In this document: positions 35,564-46,237 of the stretch, one piece after another | Layout of the letters: each line of letters opens with the position of its first letter | Position numbering within the stretch: the first letter of the stretch is position 1 | Position numbers and translations under genes: made by a program | Source of the DNA: Guyparkeria hydrothermalis | GTDB taxonomy: Bacteria; Pseudomonadota; Gammaproteobacteria; Halothiobacillales; Halothiobacillaceae | DNA length: 64,000 bases | Direction of reading: 5' to 3' | NCBI RefSeq assembly: GCF_023555385.1 | Contig: NZ_JAJSED010000001.1 | Span: forward strand, 62,001 to 126,000 | The notes under the pieces: model-generated | The model's input: the letters and a program-made list of their open reading frames with translations, nothing else | Databases searched by the model: none | What the model was told of the DNA's origin: nothing

Positions 35564-35590
35564 CCATCGGCGGTTCCCGGGAAAACTTTA
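35564..35590 (-). promoter_or_regulatory. Sigma-28 (FliA) promoter of flgM
   Basis: On the minus strand TAAA (35590-35587), 15 bases, GCCGATGG (35571-35564). It is about 100 bases before the flgM start. Confidence 0.8.
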
Positions 35591-36606: not shown

Positions 36607-36633
36607 TAAAGATTGTCTCCCCGGGGCCGATAC
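36607..36633 (+). promoter_or_regulatory. Sigma-28 (FliA) promoter of cheV-cheR
   Basis: TAAA (36607-36610), 15 bases, GCCGATAC (36626-36633). Eleven of twelve fixed positions match the consensus. It is 60 bases before cheV. Confidence 0.82.
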
Positions 36634-36692: not shown

Positions 36693-37652
36693 GTGAAAAG
36701 CAACGTGATGTCATCAGTCGATTCCCGCACCCAGCTCGCCGGCCGCAACCGACTCGAGCTTTTGGTGTTCGGATTGGGCACGGATCAGCGCTTCGGGATC
36801 AACGTCTTCAAGGTGCGTGAAGTCATCCGCTGCCCGAAACTGACCGACGTGCCTCACTCGGACAGCTCCATCCGGGGTATTGCCGACGTTCGCGGTCACA
36901 CCATCACCGTCATCGATCTGTCGGAGGCCATCGGCAAGGGGCGGATGACCGAAGAGCAGGTGCAGGACGCGTTCGTCATCATTACCGAGTACAACCGCGC
37001 GGTGCAGGGCTTTCTGGTCCACTCGGTCGACCGCATCGTCAATCTGTCGTGGAAGGAGGTGCTCACCCCGCCGAGCGGCACCAACAACTCCAATTTCCTG
37101 ACGGCCGTAGCGCGCATCGACAAGCAGCTGGTGGAGATCATCGACGTCGAGCAGATCTTCGCTCGTGTCGTCGGCGTGGCCGAGACCGTGTCGGACGAGG
37201 TGATCGGTCAGTTCGGCGAGATCGCCAAGGGCAGCGACCTGGTGCTGGTCGTCGATGACTCGGTCGTGGCCCGCAAGCAGGTCGAGAGCACGCTGGAGCA
37301 GATGCACCTGCACCCGGTGGTCACGAAGAACGGGCAGGAAGCGATCGACACCCTGCGTCGCTGGAAGGAGAAGCAGCCGGAGCAGCTCGAACGGTTGGCC
37401 ATGGTCGTCTCGGACATCGAGATGCCGACGATGGACGGCTATACCCTGACGTCGCTGATCCGCCAGGACCCGAAGCTCAAGAGCCTCTACGTGATCCTGC
37501 ACTCCTCGCTCTCGGGTGTGTTCAACGAAAACATGGTCAAGCAGGTGGGTGCTGATCGCTTCATCCCGAAATTCCATCCGGACGATCTCGCCCGCGTCGT
37601 GGGCGAGGCGCTCACGCACCATGAGGTGCATCACGCTGTGGACGAGGCTTGA
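36693..37652 (+). CDS. cheV: Chemotaxis coupling protein CheV (CheW + receiver)
   Basis: 319 residues. A CheW-like domain covers about 18-165 and a receiver domain 183-312. The phospho-acceptor is Asp241 in VVSDIEMPTMDG, with the acidic pair in LVVDDS and Lys in RFIPKFH. It links receptors to CheA and adjusts the coupling by phosphorylation. The GTG at 36693 with AGGACA is preferred; ATG 36708 is possible. Next to cheR, as in Pseudomonas and Vibrio. Confidence 0.93.
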   Translation: MKSNVMSSVDSRTQLAGRNRLELLVFGLGTDQRFGINVFKVREVIRCPKLTDVPHSDSSIRGIADVRGHTITVIDLSEAIGKGRMTEEQVQDAFVIITEYNRAVQGFLVHSVDRIVNLSWKEVLTPPSGTNNSNFLTAVARIDKQLVEIIDVEQIFARVVGVAETVSDEVIGQFGEIAKGSDLVLVVDDSVVARKQVESTLEQMHLHPVVTKNGQEAIDTLRRWKEKQPEQLERLAMVVSDIEMPTMDGYTLTSLIRQDPKLKSLYVILHSSLSGVFNENMVKQVGADRFIPKFHPDDLARVVGEALTHHEVHHAVDEA

Positions 37653-37660
37653 CCGCGGGC

Positions 37661-38464
37661 ATGAAGGCCGAAACCTTCGCCCGATTCACCGCCTTTCTCG
37701 AGCAGCACAGCGGAATACTGCTGAGCCCGGACAAGCAGTACCTGGTGGAAACGCGGCTCTCACGAGTGGCGCGTGCGCAGGGGCATGCGTCGGTGGAAGG
37801 GTTGATCGAGACGCTTCTCTCCCGTCGCGATCGCACCCTGGCGCGCGACGTGGTCGATGCGATGACCACCAACGAGACGCTCTGGTTTCGTGATGGCTAC
37901 CCCTTCGCGGCCCTGGAAAAGAAGTTCTTCCCCGAGGCCGTTTCGGCCAAGAAATCGAGCTATCGCATCTGGTCGGCTGCCTGTTCCACCGGGCAGGAGG
38001 CCTTCTCGATCAGCATCACCGCCGAGGAACAGCGGGTGCCCTTCAATCTCGAGATCGTGGGCACGGATATCTCCGAGGCGGTGGTCGAGAAGGCGCGCAA
38101 GGGCGTGTTCGATGACCTGTCGCTGGGGCGCGGGCTCTCGCCGGAGCGCAAGCGTCAATATTTCGTCAAGACGGGCGAAGGCTGGAAGATCTCTCCGCAG
38201 GTCAGTCGCCGGGTGCTGTTCCGTCAGGGCAATCTGCTCGAACTGCGCCCGGAGGTCCGGCGCTACGATCTGGTGTTCTGCCGCAACGTGCTTATCTACT
38301 TCTCGCGCGAGACCAAGGCCAAGATCATCAACCGCATTGCCGACACACTTGTGCCGGGCGGTTACCTGCTCCTGGGCGCGTCGGAATCCCTTACCCAACT
38401 CAGCGACCGCTTCACGGCAGAGCGCCTGCCGACCGGTGGCACCGCCTACCGGCTCAAGGACTGA
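37661..38464 (+). CDS. cheR: Chemotaxis protein methyltransferase CheR
   Basis: 267 residues. An N-terminal helical domain (FTAFLEQHSGILLSPDKQYL) is followed by the SAM-binding domain with WSAACSTGQEAFSI, VGTDISEAVVEKA, and FCRNVLIYFS. It methylates receptor glutamates. The ATG at 37661 has GAGG upstream; a TTG at 37649 overlapping the cheV stop is an alternative. Transcripts end at the terminator at 38531. Confidence 0.93.
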   Translation: MKAETFARFTAFLEQHSGILLSPDKQYLVETRLSRVARAQGHASVEGLIETLLSRRDRTLARDVVDAMTTNETLWFRDGYPFAALEKKFFPEAVSAKKSSYRIWSAACSTGQEAFSISITAEEQRVPFNLEIVGTDISEAVVEKARKGVFDDLSLGRGLSPERKRQYFVKTGEGWKISPQVSRRVLFRQGNLLELRPEVRRYDLVFCRNVLIYFSRETKAKIINRIADTLVPGGYLLLGASESLTQLSDRFTAERLPTGGTAYRLKD

Positions 38465-38510
38465 CCGAGCCACCTTTCCGAGCTCGTTCGGCTCGGCCCT
38501 ACCGAAAAGC

Positions 38511-38526
38511 TGGCACGCTTATCGCA
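38511..38526 (+). promoter_or_regulatory. Sigma-54 promoter of flgBCDE
   Basis: TGGCACG, CTTA, TCGCA: GG and GC are ten bases apart and only one position departs from TGGCACG-N4-TTGCA. The expected start, near 38537, falls inside the left arm of the terminator that follows. Confidence 0.75.
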
Positions 38527-38530
38527 TAAG

Positions 38531-38563
38531 CCCTCGGCACTGACGCTGTGTCGAGGGTTTTTT
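38531..38563 (+). terminator. cheR terminator overlapping the flgB leader
   Basis: CCCTCGGCAC (38531-38540) pairs with GTGTCGAGGG (38548-38557) with one G-U pair, followed by seven T. The right arm also contains GAGGG, the ribosome site of flgB, nine bases before its ATG. Confidence 0.8.
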
Positions 38564-38566
38564 TCG

Positions 38567-38974
38567 ATGTCGATCATCAACGACCGCCTGTTTGGCATTC
38601 ACGACGATGCGCTGAAGCTCCAGGAGCGCAGCCTGAAGATGCGTGCCGAGAACATCGCCAATGCCGATACCCCGGGGTACAAGGCCCGGGTGATGTCGTT
38701 CGACCGCGCGATGGAGGCTGCATTGCAGTCCAAGTCCGCTCCCGGGGCCGCCGGGCAGCTGGCGACCAGTGATCCGCGGCAGCTGGGCGGCACCTCGTCC
38801 TCGTCGATCCGCGAGGGGTTCTCGGTGCCGGACCAGCCAGCGCTGGACGGCAACACGGTCGATCTGGACAAGGAACGCGTCGGCTACACGCAGGATGCGA
38901 TCGGCTATCAGACCACGCTCTCGTTTCTCAGCAGCCGGATTTCCGGCATCAAGAAGGCCCTGGGCGGACAGTGA
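38567..38974 (+). CDS. flgB: Flagellar proximal rod protein FlgB
   Basis: 135 residues. The family motif RAENIANADTPGYKAR is at about 26-41, and the C-terminal helix ends the chain (LSFLSSRISGIKKALGG). It forms the base of the rod just above the MS ring. First gene of the flgBCDE run; the ribosome site lies in the terminator-like hairpin upstream. Confidence 0.95.
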   Translation: MSIINDRLFGIHDDALKLQERSLKMRAENIANADTPGYKARVMSFDRAMEAALQSKSAPGAAGQLATSDPRQLGGTSSSSIREGFSVPDQPALDGNTVDLDKERVGYTQDAIGYQTTLSFLSSRISGIKKALGGQ

Positions 38975-40168: not shown

Positions 40169-41521
40169 ATGTCGTTCAACACCTCCATTAGCGGCCTGAA
40201 CGCCGCGCAGAAAGACCTGAACGTGACGAGCAATAACATTGCCAATGCCAAGTCCACCGGCTTCAAGAAGTCGCGGGCGGAATTCGGCGATATCTATGCC
40301 GTCAGCGCGTTCGGCAATAGCAAAACTTCGGTGGGGCAGGGCGTCATCAACCAGGCAGTCACCCAGCAGTTCACGCAAGGGAATCTCGATTTCACCGATC
40401 GGTCTCTGGATCTGGCGATTTCGGGTGAGGGCTTTTTTGCCTTCCAGCCGTCGCTGGACTCGGCTGAGTCAGTATTCAGTCGAGCGGGCGCTCTCGGTGT
40501 CAACAAGGATGGTTATCTTGTGAACCAGGCCGGAGAGTTTCTGAAGGGCTTGCCGACGGATGCTGAGGGCAACTCGGTTTCGACGTCACTGGCTACGGCT
40601 GATCCGGTGAGATTGCCTGCTGAAGCGGGCGAGCCTCGGGCAACCACAACCGCAACTCAGTTGTTCAATCTGCCTTCAGAAGCCGAAGGGCTTCCTGTCA
40701 GTGCGTTTAATTGGAATGATCCGGAGACATATACTCAGGCAAATTCCCAACGTGTTTTTGACTCTCTGGGGAATCCGCACACTCTTACTTCTTACTTTGT
40801 GAAAGACGCGGGGCAAGATAATACTTGGAGGGTTTACTATCAGTTCGACAACGAGGACCCCGTCAACTTTGGTAGTAACACACACGGTATTGATACCGAT
40901 GGCGATTCTACTGCCGACGTGACAGTCGGTTATCAAATGCTCAGGTTTGATGGCAACGGTAGCCTTACAGATGCTGACGGGAATCTGCTCAGTTATGGTT
41001 CAGGTGTGCCCGGTACGTCTATGGATCCTGAGAATCCAACCCTCACCTTGGCATCTCCCGGTACTGGGGCCGAGGATTTGTCAGTGCAAATGCGGATTTC
41101 ACGCAACTCCACGCAGTACGCGGCAGGATTCAATATCGGTGATCAAGGTCAGGATGGTTATACCACCGGCCAATTGACGGGCGTGTCCGTGGGCAGTGAT
41201 GGCTTGATCCGTGCCAGCTACAGCAACGGTCAGAATCAGGCGTTAGGGAAGGTCGCTTTGGTTGATTTCCGCAATCCCCAGGCCTTGAAGCAGGTCGGTA
41301 ATAACCAATGGATCGAGACAGTCGACTCCGGCGAGCCACTTGCAGGCGAAGCGGGGACGGGCACCTTTGGGGCCATTCAGGGCGGGGCGCTTGAGACGTC
41401 CAACGTCGATCTCACCGCCGAGCTGGTCAACCTGATCACCGCGCAGCGGAACTTCCAGGCCAACTCACGGGCGATCGAGGCCAACAAGGCCTTGAGCGAC
41501 ACGATCATCGGCATTCGCTAA
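40169..41521 (+). CDS. flgE: Flagellar hook protein FlgE
   Basis: 450 residues. The ends are conserved (SGLNAAQKDLNVTSNNIANA near the N-terminus, LVNLITAQRNFQANSRAIE near the C-terminus). The middle, about residues 170-350, is the variable surface part of the hook and is clearly richer in A+T with codons rare elsewhere here (ATA, TTA, AGG). The gene is followed by its own terminator. Confidence 0.95.
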   Translation: MSFNTSISGLNAAQKDLNVTSNNIANAKSTGFKKSRAEFGDIYAVSAFGNSKTSVGQGVINQAVTQQFTQGNLDFTDRSLDLAISGEGFFAFQPSLDSAESVFSRAGALGVNKDGYLVNQAGEFLKGLPTDAEGNSVSTSLATADPVRLPAEAGEPRATTTATQLFNLPSEAEGLPVSAFNWNDPETYTQANSQRVFDSLGNPHTLTSYFVKDAGQDNTWRVYYQFDNEDPVNFGSNTHGIDTDGDSTADVTVGYQMLRFDGNGSLTDADGNLLSYGSGVPGTSMDPENPTLTLASPGTGAEDLSVQMRISRNSTQYAAGFNIGDQGQDGYTTGQLTGVSVGSDGLIRASYSNGQNQALGKVALVDFRNPQALKQVGNNQWIETVDSGEPLAGEAGTGTFGAIQGGALETSNVDLTAELVNLITAQRNFQANSRAIEANKALSDTIIGIR

Positions 41522-41542
41522 CGACGCATCGCCGTAAACGCG

Positions 41543-41570
41543 AAAGCGGGCCATCGGGCCCGCTTTTTTT
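41543..41570 (+). terminator. Terminator after flgE
   Basis: AAGCGGGCC pairs with GGCCCGCTT over a 4-base loop and is followed by TTTTT. It splits the flg genes into flgBCDE and flgFGHIJ(KL). Confidence 0.88.
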
Positions 41571-41621
41571 GTGCCTGCCGAAAGGCCGCGCCATGCCAAT
41601 TTTTCTCTGCCATTCCTGATC

Positions 41622-41637
41622 TGGCACACCTCCTGCA
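41622..41637 (+). promoter_or_regulatory. Sigma-54 promoter of flgFGHIJ
   Basis: TGGCAC, ACCTC, CTGCA: GG and GC are ten bases apart and one position differs from the consensus. It lies 61 bases before flgF and just after the flgE terminator. Confidence 0.75.
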
Positions 41638-41697
41638 TTAAAGCAGGGCATCCGGGGCTTTCCCCGAATCGAATCAGTGAATTGTTGGAGGTGCGAG

Positions 41698-42441
41698 ATG
41701 GATCGTCTGGCTTACATCGCCATGAGCGGTGCGTCGCAGACCATGCGGGCCCAGGCCACCAACGCCAATAATTTGGCGAACGTGAACACCCAGGGCTTCA
41801 AGGCGGATATCGATGCCTTTGCCAGTCTGCCGGTTTACGGCCCGGGGCAGGCTTCGCGCGCTTATACCGAGGCGCAGGGCAAGGGTGCCGATTTTTCGGC
41901 CGGCCCGTTGCAGACCACCGGTCGCGAGCTCGATGTCGCGGTCAAGGGGGAGGGATTCATCGCCGTCGAGGCGCCGGACGGCCGGGTCGCCTACACCCGG
42001 CGCGGCGACCTGCACCTGACCGCCAACGGTCAGCTGCAAACGGGTCAGGGCGATCCCGTGATGGGCAACCAGGGCCCGATCGCCATCCCGCCGGCGGAGA
42101 AGATCGACATCCACGCCGACGGCAGCATCAGCATCATTCCGGTCGGCGGCCAGGCGAATCAGCCGGCAATGGTCGACCGCATCCGACTGGTCAATCCGGC
42201 CCAGGCCGACCTGCAGAAGGCCCCCGACGGGCGCTTCTCGCTGCGGCCCGGCGTCGAGGAACCGCAGGCGGATGCCGCCGTGCAGATTGCCAGCGGCGTG
42301 CTCGAGGGCAGCAACGTCAACGCCGTCGAAGCCATGGTCAACATGATCGAGTACGGCCGCATGTTCGAAACACAGAGCCGCATGATCCGCACCGCCGAGG
42401 AAAACGGCGAGGCTGCCGATCGTCTCATGCGCCTCGGTTAA
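41698..42441 (+). CDS. flgF: Flagellar proximal rod protein FlgF
   Basis: 247 residues. AMSGASQTMRAQATNANNLA at the N-terminus and EAMVNMIEYGRMFETQSRMI at the C-terminus are typical of FlgF. The ATG at 41698 follows GGAGGTGCGAG. First gene of the second flg unit. Confidence 0.94.
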   Translation: MDRLAYIAMSGASQTMRAQATNANNLANVNTQGFKADIDAFASLPVYGPGQASRAYTEAQGKGADFSAGPLQTTGRELDVAVKGEGFIAVEAPDGRVAYTRRGDLHLTANGQLQTGQGDPVMGNQGPIAIPPAEKIDIHADGSISIIPVGGQANQPAMVDRIRLVNPAQADLQKAPDGRFSLRPGVEEPQADAAVQIASGVLEGSNVNAVEAMVNMIEYGRMFETQSRMIRTAEENGEAADRLMRLG

Positions 42442-46210: not shown

Positions 46211-46237
46211 TAAAGTTTTTCGTTTTCCGGCCGATAC
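46211..46237 (+). promoter_or_regulatory. Sigma-28 (FliA) promoter of flgKL
   Basis: TAAA (46211-46214), 15 bases, GCCGATAC (46230-46237). It lies 30 bases before flgK and lets the junction proteins be made as late genes. Confidence 0.85.

Follow-up and report, generated by a model that had tools for sequence, protein, structure and literature searches.

How can a cell end one transcript and begin the next when the signals for both occupy the same few bases? Insulation between neighbouring genes is usually drawn with the terminator first and the promoter second. The junction between cheR and flgB in a 2.39-Mb genome of Guyparkeria (Halothiobacillaceae) raises the question of a different arrangement, since an earlier note on this DNA had proposed that the sigma-54 promoter of flgB fires inside the terminator of cheR.

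The stretch that we analyzed (the window, 64 kb) is a flagellar and chemotaxis region, in which open reading frames and family matches give the plus-strand order cheV, cheR, flgBCDE and flgF. The cheV frame (36693-37652, plus strand) encodes a CheW domain and a receiver domain (CheW and response-regulator family matches). It is followed by cheR (37649-38464, plus strand; CheR family, E = 1.5e-42, under the curated cut-off of the model) and, after a gap of 102 bp between the cheR stop (end at 38464) and the flgB ATG (38567), by flgB (38567-38974, plus strand; TIGR01396, 92.8 bits against a cut-off of 59.05). A consensus scan placed a sigma-28 promoter for cheV-cheR at 36607-36633 (plus strand; TAAAGATT-N11-GCCGATAC, 14 of 16 letters), 60 bp ahead of cheV, and the genes for both FliA and RpoN (TIGR02395, 470.9 bits, above cut-off) are present in the genome. 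In the cheR-flgB gap we saw no sigma-70-like promoter. Because cheV has its own sigma-28 promoter and flgB a sigma-54 promoter, the segment between them separates two regulatory classes, as the earlier note had it in setting late cheVR apart from flgB. The same scan gave flgM a sigma-28 site and flgA, flgB and flgF sigma-54 sites; strong sigma-28 sites lie at 46211-46237 (plus strand; TAAAGTTT-N11-GCCGATAC) and at 35590 on the minus strand, immediately upstream of flgM (TAAAGTTT-N11-GCCGATGG).

The flgB promoter is the element TGGCACGCTTATCGCA at 38511-38526 (plus strand), the top-scoring sigma-54 site in the window. It carries 11 of 12 consensus letters, with GG at -24, GC at -12 and the correct spacing. 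Counted from 38525, the C of the -12 GC, the predicted transcription start (+1) lies by convention 12 nt further 3', at 38537 (plus strand), and purines are found close to it (38536, 38537 and 38539). These are the site and the approximate start, within the left arm of the hairpin, that had been claimed for flgB. By itself the sigma-54 motif is weak evidence on the genome scale, a loose pattern giving 69 matches compared to 58 in a reversed control; position and family-wide conservation are what make the flgB site a credible candidate. An A-tract directly 5' of the -24 element is present in 10 of 10 Guyparkeria genomes (AAA invariant, mostly CAAAAAC), and this tract before 38511 is perhaps a polymerase contact or a bend.

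Two bases past the final letter of the promoter begins a stem of 13 pairs (38528-38560). Its left (5') arm, AAGCCCTCGGCAC, occupies 38528-38540 with a core at 38531-38540, the loop 38541-38547, and the right (3') arm, GTGTCGAGGGTTT, 38548-38560; a U-tract of seven T (38558-38564) overlaps the last three stem pairs. All of these elements are on the plus strand, as is the flgB ribosome-binding site, GAGGG (38553-38557), which is held within the right arm 9 nt before the ATG. With a stable, G+C-rich stem and an adjoining U-tract, 38528-38560 has the features by which a putative intrinsic terminator is recognized, and it ranked first in a terminator scan of 10 kb (11 sites found, compared to 6.3 +/- 2.5 expected). 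The 101-nt region around it folds with a z of -3.57, and none of 200 shuffles folded equally well. A comparison of the segment with the Rfam families returned no match up to E = 1.

The two RNAs that could traverse this segment differ sharply in their computed energies. The stem amounts to -21.9 kcal/mol for RNA entering from cheR, as opposed to -3.9 kcal/mol for 5' ends at 38537-38541. The RNA from 38537 retains just the last four of the ten core bases of the left arm, and the best that its terminator stretch can form is another structure, a weak one. With the 5' end at 38535 or later the hairpin has -7.9 kcal/mol or weaker, and a 5' end at 38533 would keep a hairpin of -12.6 kcal/mol; as modeled, the stem contrast appears robust to the uncertainty of the predicted start. 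Each sequence variant in the genus gave the same pattern, with -18.1 to -21.5 kcal/mol for the full stem and -1.3 to -3.9 kcal/mol from +1. The cost of opening GAGGG, fully paired in the cheR-derived RNA, is 14.0 kcal/mol, compared to 3.1 to 4.1 kcal/mol for 5' ends at 38536-38541, where weaker alternative pairings keep the site partly paired (unpaired probability of 0.1-0.55 per base). The strong terminator that the earlier note described, the loss of most of its left arm from the flgB transcript, and a ribosome site hidden in cheR read-through and freed in flgB RNA (an opening cost falling to about 4 kcal/mol) are thus all reproduced in the calculations.

Based on these models, 38511-38566 is probably a start-within-terminator insulator, by which the RNA of cheR terminates and that of the flgB promoter escapes. 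A polymerase that had begun at the sigma-28 promoter of cheV-cheR would copy both arms, and the strong hairpin with its seven U would terminate the transcript at about 38558-38564. A sigma-54 polymerase would start near 38537, inside the left arm; its RNA could not form the terminator, because most of the left arm is missing, and would proceed into flgBCDE. The missing arm would also leave GAGGG largely free, while any cheR RNA that read through would bury it in the stem. The analysis shows that the elements are present, that the predicted energies differ as described and that the genus conserves the segment; where exactly the RNAs start and end, that cheR RNA terminates in vivo, how translation responds and what the cell gains are inferred. 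That the masking of the ribosome site in read-through RNA matters in the cell we judge to be about as likely as not, because only RNA already past the terminator is affected.

Joint conservation of promoter and hairpin was the comparison that the earlier note had proposed, and it supports the insulator. We searched 11 genomes of the genus, of which 10 contained flgB (the eleventh is 64% complete). The promoter, both arms and the U-tract (at least five T in all Guyparkeria) were kept in all ten, and no insertion or deletion changes the interval from promoter to left arm. The core of the right arm, GTGTCGAGGG, is invariant across all Guyparkeria, whereas the loop varies freely (TGACGCT, TGACCAC, TGACATT, TGACATC, TAACGAT and one form a base shorter), as does the distance from the U-tract to the ATG. 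Across the ten species the mean pairwise identity was 0.91 for the block and 0.89 for the portion of it that follows the promoter, compared to 0.52 for the spacer upstream of the promoter (near random; shuffled, 0.49) and 0.58 at the fourfold codon positions of cheR and flgB; therefore, the stem is under selection. These numbers also weigh on the reading that the overlap arose by chance and has no function. Of 65 random placements of the two elements within the 102-bp gap, 5 (7.7%) have +1 inside the left arm, so for a single genome a coincidence would be only moderately unlikely. Loose sigma-54 patterns also overlap terminators elsewhere without an obvious gene. Maintenance across ten species weighs more, and it is this together with the energies that carries the case; chance appears very improbable. 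The stem showed no compensatory base-pair changes among its eight distinct sequences. Ten of the 13 pairs never vary, one alternates between A-U and G-U, and one G-U pair is a U-U mismatch in three of the eight. The right arm could be conserved merely as ribosome site and early leader, but such a role would leave the conserved left arm and U-tract unexplained. As the ten species share one hairpin origin, their agreement shows maintenance and not repeated invention.

A conserved inverted repeat at this place might instead act as DNA, bound by a protein that regulates the promoter, such as an activator of the FleR/FlrC type sitting downstream of the start. Some flagellar sigma-54 activators do bind downstream of the start, and the repeat is highly conserved. 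However, CCCTCG-N5-25-CGAGGG occurs nowhere else in the window, the flgF and flgA promoters included, the sister genera have the promoter without the repeat, and the U-tract beside the repeat is kept in all Guyparkeria. We regard a regulator site as very unlikely. Most Guyparkeria have a second hairpin, without a U-tract, in the spacer that follows the cheR stop and precedes the sigma-54 site (38478-38496 in the window). Its stems differ by species (for example CCGAGC/GCTCGG, GGGTGC/GCACCC, CCCGGC/GCCGGG and GAACGAC/GTCGTTC), and the folding of the spacer beats most shuffles in six genomes (L004-L009; at most 16 of 200 shuffles as good). This second hairpin may protect the 3' end of cheR or may be a remnant of an older terminator.

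Outside the genus the arrangement was not encountered. We searched the 300 bases upstream of flgB in other gammaproteobacteria, for the 92 regions where the position of flgB could be assigned, and tallied them by eye. A sigma-54 site is present in nearly all of them, usually 41-66 bases ahead of flgB, whose start was extrapolated from the protein alignment; cheR is upstream in 41 of the 92. In none did a terminator span the predicted flgB start; the terminators that were seen within the 300 bases are all upstream of it. The closest genera with cheR adjoining flgB (L020, L022 and L024) have an equally short gap and no terminator. Within the cluster itself, the flgE-flgF junction (41521-41698 of the window) also places a terminator and a sigma-54 promoter between two flagellar operons, but in the ordinary order, with the terminator (41543-41566) before the promoter (41622-41637), and it serves as a natural control. 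This ordinary order indicates that the overlap was not forced by the habits of the genome and, together with the lack of overlap in other genera, that the Guyparkeria layout is most simply a derived one. A search of the same genome for TGGC-N9-GC with six T within 14-44 bases gave 10 matches, compared to 7 in the reversed control, and flgB was the only convincing overlap among the 10. One other match with a terminator (L206) has a sigma-54 site of just 8 of 12 letters at the 3' end of a gene. The class-wide pattern search gave, as judged by eye among the matches listed, the Guyparkeria cases and scattered matches; one of the latter with a real hairpin (L244) has no downstream gene near enough. 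A U-tract followed by CATG at 29702-29679 (minus strand) in the window is no more than the terminator that follows a sigma-factor gene.

These comparisons bear on a more economical account, in which termination is real, the overlap merely saves space and masking the ribosome site contributes nothing in its own right. In the family, cheR and flgB are 83-104 bp apart and the promoter lies at about -53, and the sister genera keep the same distance with no terminator; because the gap was already short, a terminator would most easily have arisen over the promoter. A strong terminator would, moreover, leave little read-through RNA to be masked. Against this stands the near-random spacer of 40-62 nt upstream of the promoter in Guyparkeria, which could have accommodated a terminator of the ordinary kind, such as flgE-flgF has. 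We hold space economy to be a serious possibility, at somewhat below even chances.

The geometry of the insulator has a further consequence. Because the terminator lies downstream of the promoter, every polymerase from cheR crosses the -24/-12 element, and late cheVR transcription might occlude the sigma-54 promoter before terminating, lowering flgB once sigma-28 is active. The usual layout, as at flgF here and in several other species, would stop a cheR-type polymerase first; on the other hand, cheVR may be transcribed too rarely to cause occlusion. Such occlusion is compatible with the insulator and not exclusive of it, and we think it rather unlikely. More doubtful still is the fullest version, a discriminator of transcripts by origin, in which the segment would stop and translationally silence upstream RNA, would spare its own, and would let late cheVR turn the middle promoter down. 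The genus-wide, three-way overlap of sigma-54 start, left arm, and ribosome site with U-tract would be the basis of such a discriminator, and to this reading of the overlap we give low credence.

Terminators, sigma-54 promoters and overlapping operons are known; their combination here appears new. In the open literature, which excludes most subscription journals, we found no direct precedent for a start inside a terminator, an absence that argues only weakly for novelty. Both tasks would fall to one short segment, which would tell RNAs apart by their origin. If confirmed, the segment would be a compact insulator that could be transplanted with ease. It would also caution that programs for terminator prediction can mistake a leader for an attenuated one, and would provide a clean natural setting in which to ask if polymerases elongating from a late flagellar unit disturb a middle one.

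Three known systems are instructive for comparison. In Vibrio cholerae flgB depends on sigma-54 and FlrBC and cheV is independent of these, and in Pseudomonas aeruginosa flgB requires sigma-54 and FleSR (PMC7064773). The sigma-54-dependent flgB promoters of these polar flagellates are of the same class, at the same gene and in the same place as that of Guyparkeria, the difference being the terminator over the start, seen at none of the 92 flgB regions outside the genus. At cbbA-fHbp of Neisseria meningitidis, a rho-independent terminator between co-directional genes determines, as is predicted for cheR-flgB, how large a share read-through contributes beside the promoter of the second gene (PMC8026042); that terminator precedes the fHbp start, and the available part of the source describes neither an overlap nor masking of the ribosome site. 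The closest likeness in form is frd-ampC of E. coli (Grundstrom and Jaurin 1982, cited in PMC11838884), where a promoter sits within the end of the operon before it and a single hairpin terminates the upstream RNA inside the leader of the gene that follows, as predicted at cheR-flgB. There the downstream transcript carries the hairpin as well, and ampC is attenuated. At Guyparkeria flgB, by the predicted start, the transcript does not carry the terminator that an attenuator would require: unlike ampC, flgB starts inside the left arm, and its own transcript is predicted to be exempt.
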